A stretch of DNA of 64,000 nt from Rhodobacteraceae bacterium HLUCCA12. Its GTDB lineage: Bacteria > Pseudomonadota > Alphaproteobacteria > Rhodobacterales > Rhodobacteraceae. Shown one piece after another: positions 49,831-58,422 of this stretch (position 1 is its first letter; the number at the start of each line of letters is the position of its first letter). The translations under genes and the position numbers were made by a program. The notes beneath the pieces were generated by a model, which ran no database searches, was not told the origin of the DNA, and saw nothing but the letters and a program-made list of their open reading frames with translations. Where the stretch lies: the NCBI GenBank assembly GCA_001314715.1, contig LJSV01000004.1, positions 1 through 64,000 on the forward strand, given 5' to 3'.

Positions 49831-50844
49831 TCAGGCGGCCACCGGCTTGCGAAACACCATGCGCCGATAGCTCACGCCCGGCGGCGAGGCCTCGTCGTCC
49901 TCGGCCCCTTCGAACAGATAGGGCATCAACAGCGCGGTCACGGCGTTGCGTTGCCCAAGCGTGGGCAAAATCCGCGCCTGAAGCCGCACCTTCCAGTCGT
50001 TGTAGAACCGCACCGAGTAGTCTTGCAGCTTGCGCAGGTTGGGCAGGATATGCGCGGTCTCGTCATAATCCCAATGCAGGGCCAATCCGGCGCGTTCCAT
50101 CGCCTCGACCCAGCGCGCGGGCGTGCGATACCCCTGCGAGATCCCCCAGCCGACCTCAAGCAGGCGTGTCGCCAGCAACATGTCCTGCGAATGGGTGCCG
50201 TCACGCTCGTTCAGGAAGCAATCGAAGATCACCACCCGCCCGCCGGGTCGCAGCGCCCGCGCCAGCGACTGGCACACGGCGTCCAGATCGACCGAATAAC
50301 ACAGGGTCTCGACCCCAAAGGCCAGGTCAAAGCCGTTCAGATCATCGGGCAGCGGTTCGAAACTGCCCTGGACAAAACTTGCATTGCCCAGATCGGCGGC
50401 GCGCCCGCGCGCTTTTTCGACATGCGCGGGCAACAGGTCGAGGCCGGTAAAGGAAACGTCCGGATGGTCCTGCGCCAGGCGGATCGTGTTCAGACCCTTG
50501 CCGCAGCCCACCTCAAGAACCTGACTGGCGCCGCCCATGCGCTCCATCTGCCGGGCCACGCCGCGCGCCTGCCCGTAAAAGCCCTTGCGGTCGAACACGC
50601 CGTCATAGTTGAGCGCGAAATGCATGCAGCCCGGAACCGAGAGATACTTCTCGTAGAACTGCTCATACACCAGCACCGACTGCTGGTAATAGGGTTCGGT
50701 GACCTGCGCGCCCTCATCCTTGAGCATCTTGTCGACGTCGAACACCCGGTCAACCATGCCGACCGCCTCGGACAATGAGAACGGCAAGGGGCCAAGGGGG
50801 GGCAAGGGCTGCGCTTCGACCTGTTTCTTCGCCTTTTTCGCCAC
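49831..50844 (-). CDS. Class I SAM-dependent methyltransferase
   Basis: GASQVLEVGCGKGLNTIRLAQDHPDVSFTGLDLLPAHVEKARGRA; GTG start at 50844 (VAKKAKKQVEAQ). Confidence 0.88.
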   Translation of the reverse strand: MAKKAKKQVEAQPLPPLGPLPFSLSEAVGMVDRVFDVDKMLKDEGAQVTEPYYQQSVLVYEQFYEKYLSVPGCMHFALNYDGVFDRKGFYGQARGVARQMERMGGASQVLEVGCGKGLNTIRLAQDHPDVSFTGLDLLPAHVEKARGRAADLGNASFVQGSFEPLPDDLNGFDLAFGVETLCYSVDLDAVCQSLARALRPGGRVVIFDCFLNERDGTHSQDMLLATRLLEVGWGISQGYRTPARWVEAMERAGLALHWDYDETAHILPNLRKLQDYSVRFYNDWKVRLQARILPTLGQRNAVTALLMPYLFEGAEDDEASPPGVSYRRMVFRKPVAA

Positions 50845-51032
50845 GCGATCCCCCTGCTCGACAAATATGCAACCGGGCGCGGTTACCCAGCTTGCGCGGC
50901 GGACCTTATAGCGGGCTTCATGGCGGCGCAAGCATCGCCGGGGTGCCTTGCGGCAGCCGTCGCAAACCCGCAAACAGGGGGCCGAGCCTGCCTGAGAAAA
51001 AGACCGCCCCTTTGCCGGATGAGACCCACGCG

Positions 51033-51991: not shown

Positions 51992-52315
51992 TCAGCGGTC
52001 GAAGAAGTCTTCCTCGGCCTCGGTCACGTCGATATCCAGCGCCTCAAGACCGGCTTCCAGATTCTCGGACAGATGCGGCATGCCCAGCAGATAGTCGGGC
52101 GTCGGTGTCGTGGCTTCGGCCAGAGCGGTGGCAACGGCTTCGTTGTAATCCTCCGGCTCGAAGGCGCCGCGACCCACCCAGGCGATGGCAACCAGATGGG
52201 CCTGTTCGTCCTCGTTCAGCGAATCGATGAAGGCGTGCAACTCGCCCTCGCGATTGGCTTCGCGGGCCTGAAAGATGATATGAACCACTTTCTTGATGCT
52301 GATGTCTGGGCGCAT
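51992..52315 (-). CDS. DUF3775 domain-containing acidic protein
   Basis: MRPDISIKKVVHIIFQAREANREGELHAFIDSLNEDEQAHLVAIAWVGRGAFEPEDYNEAV. Confidence 0.8.
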   Translation of the reverse strand: MRPDISIKKVVHIIFQAREANREGELHAFIDSLNEDEQAHLVAIAWVGRGAFEPEDYNEAVATALAEATTPTPDYLLGMPHLSENLEAGLEALDIDVTEAEEDFFDR

Positions 52316-52377: not shown

Positions 52378-53118
52378 TCAGCCGCGTATCGCAAAGAGCC
52401 GGAACCACAGCCAGTCGGGCATCAGCCGCGACAGGCGGAAGAGCCAGGAAAACAACAGCGGAAAGCTCTTGCGAAACCGCGTCGTGCCCATGTGATCGAA
52501 GATCGCGGCGGCGGCGGTTTCGGCCTCCATGATGAAGGGCATGGTGAAATCGTTCTTGTCGGTCAACCGCGTGCGGACGAAGCCGGGATTGACAAGCTGG
52601 ACCGCCACGCCCGAGCCGCGCAGATCCGCCTGCATGCTTTCGGCCAGATGCATGAGGCCCGCCTTTGACGCGCCATAACCGATCGCACCCGGAAGCCCGC
52701 GAAACCCCGCCAGCGACCCGGTCAGGATGACATGGCCCGAGCCGCGCTCGATCATTGCGGGCAACACGGCGCCCATAAGGCGCGCCGCACCGGTGAAGTT
52801 GACGTCGCACATCGCCTCGACCTGATCGGCGTTCCAGTCCTGGGCGGCCTGGGGCCAGTAGACCCCCGCCAGGTAAACCACGCCATCGACGGCCCCGGCG
52901 GCATGCGCGGCCTCATGCACCGACGCCATGTCGCGCACGTCGACCGGCACGACCAACGACCTGCCGGGCAGCGCGTCCGCCAGATCCTCGAGCCGGTCGC
53001 GGTTGCGCGCGCTCAGGACCAGCTCGACACCGGCGCGGCTCATCCGTTCGGCCAGGGCGCGCCCCAACCCCTCTGATGCGCCGATCAGCCAATAGCGTTT
53101 GCCGGACCAGTCCGTCAT
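52378..53118 (-). CDS. SDR family NAD(P)-dependent oxidoreductase
   Basis: KRYWLIGASEGLGRALAERMSRAGVELVLSARN; GAIGYGASKAGLMHLAESM. Confidence 0.93.
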   Translation of the reverse strand: MTDWSGKRYWLIGASEGLGRALAERMSRAGVELVLSARNRDRLEDLADALPGRSLVVPVDVRDMASVHEAAHAAGAVDGVVYLAGVYWPQAAQDWNADQVEAMCDVNFTGAARLMGAVLPAMIERGSGHVILTGSLAGFRGLPGAIGYGASKAGLMHLAESMQADLRGSGVAVQLVNPGFVRTRLTDKNDFTMPFIMEAETAAAAIFDHMGTTRFRKSFPLLFSWLFRLSRLMPDWLWFRLFAIRG

Positions 53119-53675
53119 GGCTGGACGCGGCGCATCGTGGCGACCAGTTCGGCGACCTTGATGCCGAACTTTCGAAACTGGCTACGGTTGATGATGGTTC
53201 CGTTTTCCATGACATACATCCAGTCCGTGACATCCAGCGCCCATCCGCCGGCATGCCTGGGCAACCGGATCCGATACGACAACCGCACGCTCGCCCCCTC
53301 CTGCTGGCCGACCCCGTGCCCGACCACGTCATCGGCCTCGGCGTGGATCGCGCCGTCATTGCCAAGGCTCAGGCGCCATTGCCGGGTCTGGGTGTTGCCC
53401 CCGGCATAGGCGAAATGCTCATCAAGGGTGCCGCGGCTGCCATTCCAGCGCCCCTCCATCCGTGCGGTAAATCGCGACGTGACGCGGCCGGTCGGCCCAT
53501 AGATGACACCCTCGCATTCGATCGGCCCGTTCAGGTGATGCCGGATGTCGGCGGCGGGCCCGGTGCCGGCATAATCGGCCGAACGCTGCGCCATGAAGCC
53601 CAGGCGCTGTTGCAGCACAAACCAGACAAGGGCCATCGCCATGACGACAAGAGGCAGAATCGCAAGATCAGGCAT
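53115..53675 (-). CDS. DUF3833 domain-containing protein
   Basis: IECEGVIYGPTGRVTSRFTARMEGRWNGSRGTLDEHFAY; N-terminal TM; overlaps SDR start by 4 nt. Confidence 0.85.
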   Translation of the reverse strand: MPDLAILPLVVMAMALVWFVLQQRLGFMAQRSADYAGTGPAADIRHHLNGPIECEGVIYGPTGRVTSRFTARMEGRWNGSRGTLDEHFAYAGGNTQTRQWRLSLGNDGAIHAEADDVVGHGVGQQEGASVRLSYRIRLPRHAGGWALDVTDWMYVMENGTIINRSQFRKFGIKVAELVATMRRVQP

Positions 53676-54927
53676 GGCTTGGTTCTCTTTCGATTGGGGT
53701 TGCTGCAAGCACTGCGATGGCCAGCAGTTTCAAGGTGCAAGGAACGAGGGCATAGACCAGCCCCAGTGCCAGCAGCGCGCCGGGCGGACTATCCGGCCCG
53801 GTGAAGCCCTGCCATTCCAGAAACGGCAGGACGGAGATCGCGGCCAGTGCCAGGGTCGCCTTTGACATGAAGGCCCAAAGCGCGAAGCCTGTCGCCGCGT
53901 CGGGCAAAACACGGACCATGCGCCGGGCAAACAGGGCCGAGAGGAGGGTCAGGTCAGCCCCCAGCGCAGCCCCCGTGACCACGCAGATCGCGGCGAAGTG
54001 CAGCGTATCGCCCGGACCCAGCAGCGCCGCCAGCGCAAAGGCCGCAACCGAAAGCGCCATGGCCGCGATCAGGATCGGTCGTTCGCCATGGACACGGGCC
54101 GCCGCCGCCCAAAGCGGTGCCGCCAGTGCTGCCGACAGGAAGAACAGGATCAGCAGCGCCCCCTCCCATCCCGGTGCCTGCAACCGCGATTCGACAAAGA
54201 ACAGGAACAGCGTGGAACTGACCGCGACGGGGGCTGCATTGAGCAGGGCCACCAACAAGAGCCGACGCGAAACCCGGTCGCCGAGAACCGCGACAAAGCC
54301 TTGCAGGGCGATTGGCGCCGCATCGGCCGGTGCGGCGAAGGCATCGCGCATCACCCAAAGCGCGCCAAGCGCGAAAGCCGCAAACAGGATGGCAAAGCTT
54401 TCAAACGGCGGATTGGGACCGAGCGCCAGCAAGGACGGCGCCGCGGCAGCGGCACAGACCCCCAACAATGCGCCGGCCTCGCGCCAGGCGGCAAGGCGCA
54501 CATGACCGTCGGCGCCCATGGCCTCGGCTTTCTGCACGCCCTGCGCATAAAAGCAGATTGTCAGAAAGCTGAATGCGCTGAACAGCCCCGTCAGCGTCAG
54601 CGCGAACCACGCCAGCGGCGCGATCGGCGGCGCGACGGCAAAAAGGCCCAGCATCGACAGCGAAAGAACCGCCGCCCCCCCGGCGACCATCGCCTTGCGG
54701 TGCGCGGCGGTGGCATGCGCCAGCCAGCCCAACAAGGGATCCTGTGCGAAGTCGATCAGTCTGAGCGCGAACAGAACGGCGCCCAGCGCGCCAAGGCTGA
54801 CGCCGTATTCGTCAACGTAGTATTTGGGCGCATGAATGTAGATCGGCAGCCCGGCCATGGCCAGCATGGCGGCAAAGGCCGACCATGCGGCCGGATGGGT
54901 CGTGCGCCCCAGCCCGATACGGATCAT
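53668..54927 (-). CDS. MFS transporter
   Basis: Twelve hydrophobic segments; LRLIDFAQDPLLGWLAHATAAHRKAM; start trimmed to MIRIGLGRTTHPAAW. Confidence 0.88.
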   Translation of the reverse strand: MIRIGLGRTTHPAAWSAFAAMLAMAGLPIYIHAPKYYVDEYGVSLGALGAVLFALRLIDFAQDPLLGWLAHATAAHRKAMVAGGAAVLSLSMLGLFAVAPPIAPLAWFALTLTGLFSAFSFLTICFYAQGVQKAEAMGADGHVRLAAWREAGALLGVCAAAAAPSLLALGPNPPFESFAILFAAFALGALWVMRDAFAAPADAAPIALQGFVAVLGDRVSRRLLLVALLNAAPVAVSSTLFLFFVESRLQAPGWEGALLILFFLSAALAAPLWAAAARVHGERPILIAAMALSVAAFALAALLGPGDTLHFAAICVVTGAALGADLTLLSALFARRMVRVLPDAATGFALWAFMSKATLALAAISVLPFLEWQGFTGPDSPPGALLALGLVYALVPCTLKLLAIAVLAATPIEREPSHA

Positions 54928-55685
54928 CGTGAGATCTCGTCGGCGGGCGGGGGGGTATGCGGGCGATATCTCGCACCACGCCACCACAGCTTGAAGGCTT
55001 GCCAGTGGATCAGCGCCAGCACCCGGCGCGACCCCAAGGGCCGGCGCACCATTGACCCCAGCAACCCCGCCGAGGTCGCCGGACGGCGCGGGCCGCAAAG
55101 CGTGGCGATTAGCCCGCCCGTGGCATGGCCGTAATCTATGTGGATCGCAATCCTGTCGGCACGAATGTCGAAGCGAAAGCGATAGCCGCCGTCGATGGGC
55201 TGGAAGGGCGAGACATGAAAGATCTTGCGCGCGCCCAGGGTGTCTTGCGCGGTGATCGGTCGCTGATCGTCATTGAAGCACAGATACGAATGCCGGTCGC
55301 CAAAGGTATTGTTCACCTCGGCGATCACGCAGCGCAACTGGCCATCGCGATCATGGCACAGCCAGAAACTGACCGGGTTGAACACATGGCCCAGGATACG
55401 CGGTTGAGCCAGCAGCAGGATCTGCCCGTCGGCACTGTCCAGACCGGCCTCGGCCAACACCCCACGCACCCAGCGCGCCCCCGTTCCGGAACCTCGTTCG
55501 CCGCCGTGATCGGTGTCATGCAATGAAATGATCCCGCGCCGGTTGCGCGCGAACAGCGCCGGGGCTTGCGGCGACGGGTCTTCGGCGTCGATCAGGACAT
55601 AATCGACACCATAGGTGAAACGATTGTCCGGCCCGCCCTTGCGCCCGTGAAACGTCTTGCCCGAAAGTTGTTCAAGCGTGCTCAT
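54924..55685 (-). CDS. DUF1365 domain-containing protein
   Basis: GHVFNPVSFWLCHDRDGQLRCVIAEVNNTFGDRHSYL; KIFHVSPFQPIDGGYRF; overlaps both neighbours by 4 nt. Confidence 0.92.
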   Translation of the reverse strand: MSTLEQLSGKTFHGRKGGPDNRFTYGVDYVLIDAEDPSPQAPALFARNRRGIISLHDTDHGGERGSGTGARWVRGVLAEAGLDSADGQILLLAQPRILGHVFNPVSFWLCHDRDGQLRCVIAEVNNTFGDRHSYLCFNDDQRPITAQDTLGARKIFHVSPFQPIDGGYRFRFDIRADRIAIHIDYGHATGGLIATLCGPRRPATSAGLLGSMVRRPLGSRRVLALIHWQAFKLWWRGARYRPHTPPPADEISR

Positions 55686-56983
55686 GCCGCCGCAGCCCCC
55701 ATGCGCTGCGTCCGCGCGCTCAGTGCCTGCACCACATCGACCGCCGAGGCGAAACCGTCTTCGTGAAACCCGTTGCGCATCCAGGCACCGCAATACCAAG
55801 TGCTCCGGGCCCCGTTGAAGTCCCGGATGCGGTCTTGCGCCGCAAAGGCCGCGAGGTCGAAAACCGGGTGGCGAAACGTGTGCGTGTCATAGATCAGCGC
55901 CTCGTCGATGGGGCGCGTGGCATTGAGCGTGACGATATGCAGATCGTCCTGCGGGATCGGTTGCAGCGAATTCATCCAGTAGCTCAGACTGATCCGCGCG
56001 CGGTCTTCAGGGGCGTGTTCGGTATAGGTCCAGCTGGCCCAGCACTTGCGACGGCGCGGCATGACCGAAGGATCGGCATGCAAAACCGCGTGATTGTCCT
56101 GATACCCCACCGCGCCCAGCGCGGCCCGCTCATCCTGCGTGGGATCGGACAGCATCGCCAGCGAATCGTCGGAATGGGTGGCAAGGATCACTTCGTCAAA
56201 CGCCTCCCAGGTGCCGCCGTGCGTCTTGATCTCGACCCCGAGTGGACGGCGGCGGATGGCCTGAACCGGGCTGTTGCAGCGGATGTCCACACCGCGCACG
56301 GCAAGGTCGAGCGTGAGCTTGCGCACGTATTCCACCGATCCCCCCGCGACGGTGAACCACTGATGCTGGCCATGATAGCCCAACAGAGCGTGGTTCTCGA
56401 AAAAGCGGATCATGGCGCGGGCGGGAAACCGCATGATCTGATCCTTCGGCGTGGACCATATCGCACCCGAGAACGGTTGTAGATAGCGTTCGCGAAACCA
56501 GCGCCCCATGCGCAGCTTGTCCATCAACTCGCCGATGGTCATTGCCGGATCGGCGGCAGCGCGAACGGCACCCTTGTTGAAACGCACGATGTCGCTGATC
56601 ATACGCAGGAAACGCGGATCGGCCAGGTTTCGGCGGCTGGCAAAAAGCTGGTCGATCGAGTTCAGGTTGTATTCGCACGCCCCCTGATCGAACGAGGCGC
56701 CAAAGCTCATGTTGCTTTTGACGGTTTCGACGTCCAGGGCCTCGAACATGGCGATCAGGTTGGGATAGTTGACGCGGTTGAACACGATGAAGCCGGTGTC
56801 GACCGGCTGATCGCCCCGTTTCCCGGCCATAACGGTGCGCGCATGCCCGCCCAGGCGCGGCGCAGCCTCGATCAGTGTTACCTGATGACCGGGCGCCAGC
56901 AGCCAGGCCGCGCCCATGCCGGAAATACCCCCTCCCACGACGGCGATTCGACGCGGGTGCAGGCTTGGGGATTCGAACGGCAT
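55682..56983 (-). CDS. FAD-dependent amine oxidase/desaturase-like protein
   Basis: RIAVVGGGISGMGAAWLLAPGHQVTLIEAAPRLGGHARTV; QPVDTGFIVFNRVNYPNL; ATG at 56983 preceded by AAGGAG. Confidence 0.92.
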   Translation of the reverse strand: MPFESPSLHPRRIAVVGGGISGMGAAWLLAPGHQVTLIEAAPRLGGHARTVMAGKRGDQPVDTGFIVFNRVNYPNLIAMFEALDVETVKSNMSFGASFDQGACEYNLNSIDQLFASRRNLADPRFLRMISDIVRFNKGAVRAAADPAMTIGELMDKLRMGRWFRERYLQPFSGAIWSTPKDQIMRFPARAMIRFFENHALLGYHGQHQWFTVAGGSVEYVRKLTLDLAVRGVDIRCNSPVQAIRRRPLGVEIKTHGGTWEAFDEVILATHSDDSLAMLSDPTQDERAALGAVGYQDNHAVLHADPSVMPRRRKCWASWTYTEHAPEDRARISLSYWMNSLQPIPQDDLHIVTLNATRPIDEALIYDTHTFRHPVFDLAAFAAQDRIRDFNGARSTWYCGAWMRNGFHEDGFASAVDVVQALSARTQRMGAAAA

Positions 56984-57009: not shown

Positions 57010-57038
57010 GGATACGCGGTGCGGCGCTGAACGGATTA
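57010..57038 (-). promoter_or_regulatory. Candidate ECF-sigma promoter for the five-gene operon
   Basis: Minus strand TAATCC-N17-GTATCC; same layout and spacing as the + strand site at 57071-57099. Confidence 0.7.
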
Positions 57039-57070
57039 CCGAACCACGCCAGGTTTTTTCGCATGTGCAC

Positions 57071-57099
57071 TGATCCGGCCTGAGCGCGGGCGCGTATTC
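57071..57099 (+). promoter_or_regulatory. Candidate ECF-sigma promoter (autoregulatory) for sigma-ChrR
   Basis: TGATCC-N17-GTATTC upstream of the sigma gene; TGATCC is the -35 recalled for R. sphaeroides RpoE/ECF11. Confidence 0.75.
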
Positions 57100-57104
57100 G
57101 GTGC

Positions 57105-57755
57105 ATGTTGCAGTTGCTGGACGAAAGCCCGATAAAAGAGCGGCAAAGGCCGCCACTCGTCCCGCAAGGGCCGAGGGGGGCGGCGCAGGCCGAAAAGGTG
57201 CGAGACGTGTCGCAAGCCGAAGAGGCACAGGGCGAGTGGGTAAGCCAGATGCTGAGCGTGGCGCAACATGGCGACGAGGCCGCGTTTGCCGAGCTGTTCG
57301 CCCATTTCGCGCCCAGGATAAAGGCGTTCCTGCTGAAGTCGGGCGCCGGTGGCCCGATGGCCGAGGAATGCGCGCAGGACGTGATGGCGACGGTCTGGCA
57401 CAAGGCGCGGCTGTTCGATCCGTCGCGCGCAAGCGTGGCGACATGGATCTTTACCATCGCCCGCAACCGGCGCATCGACGCGCTGCGCAAGGCGCGCAGA
57501 CCCGAGCCTGAAGACCTGCCATGGGGGCCCGAACCTGAACCCGACCAGGCGGATGTCCTGTCGCTGCAACAAGAAAGCGAGAAACTGGGAGAGGCGCTTG
57601 CCCTCCTGCCCGAAAACCAGCGGGCCTTGATCGAACAGGCGTATTTCGGTGATCTGTCGCATGGCGAGATTGCGCGAATTACCGGATTGCCGCTTGGCAC
57701 GATCAAGTCCCGTATCCGTCTGGCGCTCGAAAAGCTGCGTCAGGCCATGACGTGA
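57105..57755 (+). CDS. rpoE: ECF sigma factor, RpoE/ECF11-like (true start probably downstream, e.g. GTG 57207)
   Basis: AAFAELFAHFAPRIKAFLLKSGAGGPMAEECAQDVMATVWHKARLFDPSRASVATWIFTIARNRRIDALRK; region 4 GLPLGTIKSRIRLALEKLR; followed by ChrR. Confidence 0.92.
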   Translation: MLQLLDESPIKERQRPPLVPQGPRGAAQAEKVRDVSQAEEAQGEWVSQMLSVAQHGDEAAFAELFAHFAPRIKAFLLKSGAGGPMAEECAQDVMATVWHKARLFDPSRASVATWIFTIARNRRIDALRKARRPEPEDLPWGPEPEPDQADVLSLQQESEKLGEALALLPENQRALIEQAYFGDLSHGEIARITGLPLGTIKSRIRLALEKLRQAMT

Positions 57756-57759
57756 AGGT

Positions 57760-58422
57760 ATGACCGCGATGATCCGCCACCATCTCAACGATGCGCTTTT
57801 GATGGGTTACAGCGCCGGGCAACTGCCCGAGGCGTTCAACCTGATCGTGGCGACGCATATCTCGATGTGCGATGAGTGCCGGGCGCGGCTTGAAAGCTTC
57901 GATGCCGTTGGCGGAGCCCTGCTGGAAACGGCCGTCACCGATACCGGCGAGGTCGCCATGGCCGAGGACAGCCTGGCCCAGGTGATGGCCCGCATTCGGC
58001 AGGCCCCGCCCGAGCCGCGCAAGGTGCAAAGGCCCGAACCCTGTCTGTTTCCGGCCCCCTTGCGCAAGTATGTCGGCGGCGATGCCGAGGCGGGGCGCTG
58101 GCGCGCGGTGGGCGGCGGCGTTCGTCAGGCGATCCTGCCCACGGCGCGCGATGCATCGGCCAGACTGCTTTATATCCCGGCGGGCATGGCGGTGCCGGAT
58201 CATGGCCATCGCGGCACGGAACTGACGCTGGTATTGCAAGGTGCCTTCAGCGATGCGGTGGACCGGTTCGGGCCAGGCGACATCGAAATCGCAACCGAGG
58301 ATCTGGAACACACCCCGGTGGCCGAACCCGGCATGGACTGCATCTGCCTTGCGGTCACGGATGCGCCGCTGCGCTTCAACGGCATGGTGCCGCGCCTGCT
58401 GCAACCGTTCCTGAAGATCTGA
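57760..58422 (+). CDS. chrR: ChrR family zinc-binding anti-sigma factor with cupin domain
   Basis: MIRHHLNDALLMGYSAGQLPEAFNLIVATHISMCDECRARLESFDAVGGALLE (H..HxxxCxxC) plus C-terminal cupin VPDHGHRGTELTLVLQGAF. Confidence 0.94.
   Translation: MTAMIRHHLNDALLMGYSAGQLPEAFNLIVATHISMCDECRARLESFDAVGGALLETAVTDTGEVAMAEDSLAQVMARIRQAPPEPRKVQRPEPCLFPAPLRKYVGGDAEAGRWRAVGGGVRQAILPTARDASARLLYIPAGMAVPDHGHRGTELTLVLQGAFSDAVDRFGPGDIEIATEDLEHTPVAEPGMDCICLAVTDAPLRFNGMVPRLLQPFLKI

Follow-up and report, generated by a model that had tools for sequence, protein, structure and literature searches.

The window analysed here, a stretch of 64,000 nucleotides from Rhodobacteraceae bacterium HLUCCA12, contains the genes of a sigma factor and its anti-sigma factor, transcribed divergently from a five-gene operon. 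The ECF sigma factor gene rpoE lies on the plus strand and can be read in two lengths: a long form of 216 aa (RpoE-L; 57105..57755), in which Sigma70_r2 and Sigma70_r4 domains follow a 34-aa N-terminal extension, and a short form of 182 aa (RpoE-S; 57207..57755), which begins at an internal GTG and matches the short solved protein of R. sphaeroides. Among solved proteins, R. sphaeroides RpoE (2Q1Z chain A; E 1.9e-81, 276 bits) is by far the closest to the sigma factor, the next PDB relative reaching 81 bits. The following gene, chrR (57760..58422, plus strand), encodes a zinc-binding anti-sigma factor with a cupin domain (PF12973). It scores 223 bits against TIGR02451 (cut-off 124.5) and has its best PDB matches in 2Z2S and 2Q1Z; the alignment with R. 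sphaeroides ChrR spans most of the protein, and the zinc ligands and cupin metal ligands listed in PMC6852236 are conserved. The promoters upstream of rpoE and of the divergent operon both fit the published ECF11 consensus, TGATCC-N16-CGTA (PMC5507510). All these observations bear out the RpoE-ChrR identity proposed in the first-pass annotation and support the view that this locus forms the core of a stress response of the ECF11 RpoE-ChrR type.

The divergent operon, on the minus strand, starts with a ufaD homologue (55682..56983; PF01593; syntenic with RSP_1091 = ufaD), a putative FAD-dependent amine-oxidase-like fatty-acyl desaturase whose ATG at 56983 is preceded by the Shine-Dalgarno (SD) sequence AAGGAG (56995-56990), as the first-pass annotation had read it. 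It is followed by a ufaO homologue (54924..55685; DUF1365, PF07103, 237 bits; RSP_1090), an MFS transporter (53668..54927; PF13347), a DUF3833 protein (53115..53708; PF12915) and a short-chain dehydrogenase (SDR; 52378..53118; PF00106), the last three in the positions of RSP_1089, RSP_1088 and RSP_1087, respectively. This operon is gene-for-gene syntenic, and likewise divergent from rpoE, with locus L252 of the R. sphaeroides clade (L. azotoformans), where the same seven genes stand in the same order; the L. azotoformans RpoE and the solved RpoE of R. sphaeroides share 94% identity. In R. sphaeroides, UfaD and UfaO (RSP_1091 and RSP_1090) synthesize furan fatty acids, and the singlet-oxygen-induced breakdown of ChrR requires them (PMC3818230, PMC7380195, PMC6852236). 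The earlier suggestion that the sigma factor controls both itself and the divergent operon is thus supported by the ECF11 consensus in front of each and by synteny with the R. sphaeroides clade; the divergent rpoE-chrR/ufa layout is already published for R. sphaeroides itself. We looked for signs that ufaM is also under RpoE control: genes of the CMAS family are present in the genome, and no ECF11-like promoter was found near the two best. A gene for a DUF3775 protein (51992-52315, minus strand) starts 62 nt after the SDR gene; it is 84% identical to a protein at the equivalent position of a congener's locus (L253) and adjoins the ufaO homologue in L057. This gene, for which locus L252 of the R. 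sphaeroides clade gave no match, may belong to the ufa operon as its sixth member. A SAM-dependent methyltransferase nearby (49831-50973, minus strand) is weakly similar to fatty-acid methyltransferase models; we rejected it as a member of the operon, a large plus-strand ORF lying in between.

Two ECF11-type promoters lie back to back between the two operons. The predicted autoregulatory promoter of rpoE-chrR (57071..57099, plus strand; matrix score 22.5) is formed by TGATCC (57071-57076) and, after N17, GTATTC (57094-57099). That of the ufaD operon (57010..57038, minus strand; matrix score 13.6) is formed by TAATCC (57038-57033) and, after N17, GTATCC (57015-57010), with a transcription start site (TSS) predicted at about 57004. 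Both sites had been located correctly in the first reading of the sequence, and its alternative description, TRATCC-N16-CGTAT, matches each of them exactly (CGTATTC and CGTATCC, respectively). This exact pattern occurs three times in the whole genome of 3,725,513 bases and never in a reversed control, and two of the three occurrences are the divergent pair of this intergenic region, 32 bp apart; a search with looser spacing gave nine matches, against none with the reversed pattern. The genome-wide search proposed earlier thus established the rarity of the pair, but it could not delimit a regulon: allowing up to one mismatch returned 69 matches, merely about three times the 20 of the reversed control, and we claim nothing past the third exact site. 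The latter is located elsewhere in the genome (L012:1060-1527; G000:C28:125822-125848, minus strand). The ATG of a 137-aa ORF stands 27 nt beyond its -10 element, and the signal-peptide-like N-terminus of this ORF makes the secreted-like protein a candidate for a further RpoE target.

The rpoE promoter was found in 121 distinct Rhodobacteraceae loci with the spacer fixed at 16; searches with spacers of 15-18 or 15-17 gave 16 everywhere bar one ambiguous locus (L106). A minus-strand site scoring at least 8 on the matrix of the plus-strand site was present in 78 of the 111 divergent loci and in none of 113 shuffled controls. The back-to-back stress promoter pair is confirmed as real. Among relatives, the two -35 boxes are separated by anything from 8 to 167 bp, so that a fixed joint geometry of the pair is not required. 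In the pooled set, these distances cluster strongly near 13, 23 and 33 bp (a period of about 10.5), a hint of helical phasing that loses significance when each genus is represented by a single locus (n = 12, p = 0.17). A T6 tract (57054..57059, plus strand) at positions -17 to -12 from TGATCC resembles an UP element. Across relatives the AT fraction at these positions is 0.71-0.80, compared with about 0.45 around them, an AT-rich stretch that would suit an UP element. Runs of T or A were seen close upstream of TGATCC in L139, L140 and L155, loci with the promoter and no in-frame ATG after it.

The first in-frame ATG of rpoE (57105..57107) lies only 8 nt downstream of the CGTA of its promoter, too close for a normal leader, a detail absent from the first-pass annotation. 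Among the 121 distinct Rhodobacteraceae loci, 111 have an ATG at exactly this distance (hereafter +8), although these loci share ancestry and such counts do not represent independent events. The ATG is present in each of the 16 further congeners examined, with the sequence ATGTTGCA, in 71 of the 79 named motif loci and in 18 of 19 distant family members that have the motif. It is in frame with rpoE in every one of the 111 cases, and 110 of these frames are free of stops, whereas the other two frames read from the same position contain stops in 108 and 87 of the 111 loci. The base preceding the ATG, a C at our locus, is C or T in 121 of 123 loci. Transcription usually initiates at a pyrimidine-purine step, Y(-1)R(+1), so that this pattern is the one expected if the A of the ATG is the transcription start; the choice of start can vary by 1-2 nt. 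In S. meliloti, the CGTC element of an ECF promoter is located 9 nt upstream of the mapped rpoE9 TSS (PMC3616915), the same spacing as between the CGTA and the ATG at rpoE here. The constant distance, the Y(-1)A(+1) context and the rpoE9 precedent suggest that the autoregulated rpoE mRNA is probably leaderless. We found no earlier report of a leaderless rpoE or chrR in the open-access literature searched.

The ATG does not simply accompany this type of promoter. In front of ufaD, within these same intergenic regions, an ATG at +8 was found once in 49 cases; the leaders there mostly measure 20-39 nt and the base before +8 shows no preference. In Gammaproteobacteria the rpoE promoter is kept, and none of 12 motif loci has an in-frame open ATG at +7 to +12. 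Other alphaproteobacterial families vary: of 26 motif loci, 15 have such an ATG between +9 and +14, mostly at +9 to +11. Taken together with the 27-nt distance at the third exact site, these controls indicate that the ATG near the predicted TSS belongs to the alphaproteobacterial rpoE gene and not to the promoter. Within the Rhodobacteraceae, an in-frame ATG at +8 is missing from L086, L139, L140 and L155, and in L136 a stop follows six codons after it. L086, from L. azotoformans and the one genome of the R. sphaeroides clade considered here, lacks an ATG downstream of its rpoE promoter, and the gene begins there at a GTG preceded by an SD sequence. The absence of the ATG from this and a few other loci shows that it is dispensable. 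Its absence from the R. sphaeroides clade would explain the silence of the literature searched.

The second start is also conserved. The GTG at 57207 is in frame with the ATG at 57105, about 34 codons downstream, is preceded by AAGG at 57195-57198 and corresponds to the region in which the solved short RpoE of R. sphaeroides begins. Under a strict rule, an in-frame ATG, GTG or TTG with an SD sequence occurs near the extension boundary in 77 of 110 loci, whereas a control stretch within the extension contains one in 2 of 110 (Fisher p about 1e-29), and the Val and Leu codons near the internal start are mostly GTG and TTG. The first conserved Trp is encountered 38-54 residues after the +8 ATG across loci. 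In Qingshengfaniella (L228), which has the +8 ATG, RefSeq annotates the short form alone. The architecture as a whole (both promoters, the fixed in-frame ATG and two conserved starts) is strongly supported by sequence comparison, and the induced rpoE message probably encodes an overlooked longer RpoE besides the known short form.

We therefore propose the following scheme, which we regard as probable in its entirety: an ECF11 promoter pair, a leaderless rpoE mRNA and two isoforms, RpoE-L and RpoE-S. Once released by ChrR, RpoE would fire both back-to-back promoters. The leftward transcript would carry the five-gene furan-fatty-acid (ufaD-ufaO) operon, the products of which promote ChrR breakdown in R. 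sphaeroides, behind a leader of the usual type, about 20 nt long and with an SD sequence. The rightward rpoE-chrR mRNA would have the A of the in-frame ATG at 57105 as its 5' end and thus be leaderless. Its 5'-terminal AUG would direct the synthesis of RpoE-L, with a disordered N-terminal extension of about 34 residues beginning with Met-Leu, and the GTG at 57207 with its SD sequence, on the same mRNA, that of the standard RpoE-S. RpoE-L would be made efficiently solely from transcripts starting at the autoregulated promoter, and stressed cells would contain two isoforms. The position of the TSS, translation from both starts and a role of the extension are all inferred in this scheme.

One can also imagine that the extension is no more than a translated leader, feeding ribosomes to the internal start or shielding it, with the long protein as a by-product that has no role of its own. 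The low constraint on the extension and its predicted disorder fit this idea, to which we give an appreciable, if minor, chance. The extension is rich in Ala, Arg, Pro and Gly, residues 1-24 of RpoE-L are predicted to be disordered, devoid of secondary structure and with low pLDDT, and its residues are under low constraint. The differences by codon position number 124/105/159 in the extension, compared with 29/23/129 in the sigma domain; this weak third-position excess led us to abandon the idea of strong protein-level constraint, and the extension may be tolerated rather than functional. Yet an independent leader peptide could stop before the internal start, and the frame has been kept. In addition, residue 2 of RpoE-L is bulky and hydrophobic in 100 of 110 loci, which speaks against this reading; a bulky hydrophobic residue at this position should lead to retention of the initiator Met.

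It is rather unlikely, in our opinion, that the locus is an ordinary divergent pair in which rpoE is translated solely from the internal GTG or ATG with its SD sequence, after an untranslated leader of about 100 nt, the +8 ATG being used otherwise, for instance as initially transcribed sequence. The short form is indeed the one that has been solved and annotated, the internal SD start is conserved, and the R. sphaeroides-clade genome manages without the ATG. However, an element acting in RNA or in transcription need not be in frame, yet the ATG is so without exception and its frame is almost always open when the others are often stopped; moreover, the ufaD promoter, served by the same sigma factor, lacks it. 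Still more doubtful is the opposite extreme, in which the leaderless ATG would be the sole start on the induced mRNA and the internal start a relic, or used from another promoter. A 5'-terminal AUG can suffice for leaderless initiation, and the in-frame extension is universal wherever the ATG is present, but the internal NTG and its SD sequence are kept across genera while neighbouring residues drift, and lineages without the ATG must use the internal start. That the promoter-like pair is a chance match, as so short a motif might allow, has a negligible probability and is refuted by the conservation of the pair, which recurs across genera and accounts for two of the three exact matches genome-wide.

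Returning to the two-isoform scheme, our favoured guess for RpoE-L, by analogy with SigR' of Streptomyces, is a short-lived, feedback-limited isoform. We put forward only tentatively the broader idea of an ECF11 isoform switch in Rhodobacteraceae, and partly in other Alphaproteobacteria, in which RNA polymerase with RpoE initiates on an AUG, so that a probably short-lived RpoE-L arises from the stress-induced transcript alone and amplifies and then limits the response. Should the two-isoform scheme hold, a well-studied stress regulator would have a second form, so far overlooked, in most of the species possessing it, and a leaderless start fixed to its own promoter would give the sigma factor a simple means of marking its induced copies. 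Such a switch would have been missed because the clade of the model organism lacks the ATG and because annotation calls the short form. The annotated rpoE start is probably incomplete in many marine and soil relatives, and findings from R. sphaeroides would have to be transferred to them with caution. The inducing signal may also differ: we found no photosynthetic reaction-centre genes (PF00124) in this genome, so that singlet oxygen from the cell's own photosystem is unlikely, and the principal cue may be something other than singlet oxygen generated by light. By analogy, organic peroxides or further oxidants could plausibly serve as signals.

The genetic organization of the locus closely resembles that of R. 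sphaeroides RpoE-ChrR with RSP_1091-1087 (PMC3818230, PMC7380195, PMC6852236), with which it shares the divergent order, the five genes, an ECF11 promoter before both operons and the ChrR ligands. It differs from the R. sphaeroides clade, represented by L086 of L. azotoformans, in having an in-frame ATG at the predicted TSS, as does most of the family. The TGATCC-N16-CGTA promoter, the autoregulated sigma/ChrR pair and conserved core targets are also found with PSPTO_1043, the ECF11 sigma factor of Pseudomonas syringae (PMC5507510), but in those gammaproteobacterial relatives that we examined, the leaders are ordinary and no in-frame ATG coincides with the TSS. In S. meliloti, 171 leaderless mRNAs with the TSS on the A of AUG have been mapped (PMC3616915); here, a leaderless mRNA is predicted for one autoregulated ECF promoter, together with a second in-frame SD start, and the combination recurs family-wide. 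The closest functional parallel of the proposed RpoE-L is SigR' in the SigR/SigR'-RsrA system of Streptomyces, which likewise combines a zinc-dependent anti-sigma factor with an autoregulated transcript whose upstream in-frame ATG yields an N-extended isoform, a downstream start giving the short form (PMC5472188, PMC4921905). A start pair of this type, upstream and in frame on the autoregulated transcript and downstream for the short form, is present at our locus. SigR' carries an extension of 55-58 residues, is degraded by Clp and is made only from the autoregulated promoter (PMC5472188, PMC4921905). The extension of RpoE-L is shorter, with about 34 residues, and whereas the short SigR has its own promoter further downstream and a GTC start, both starts of rpoE would be located on a single, predicted leaderless transcript.
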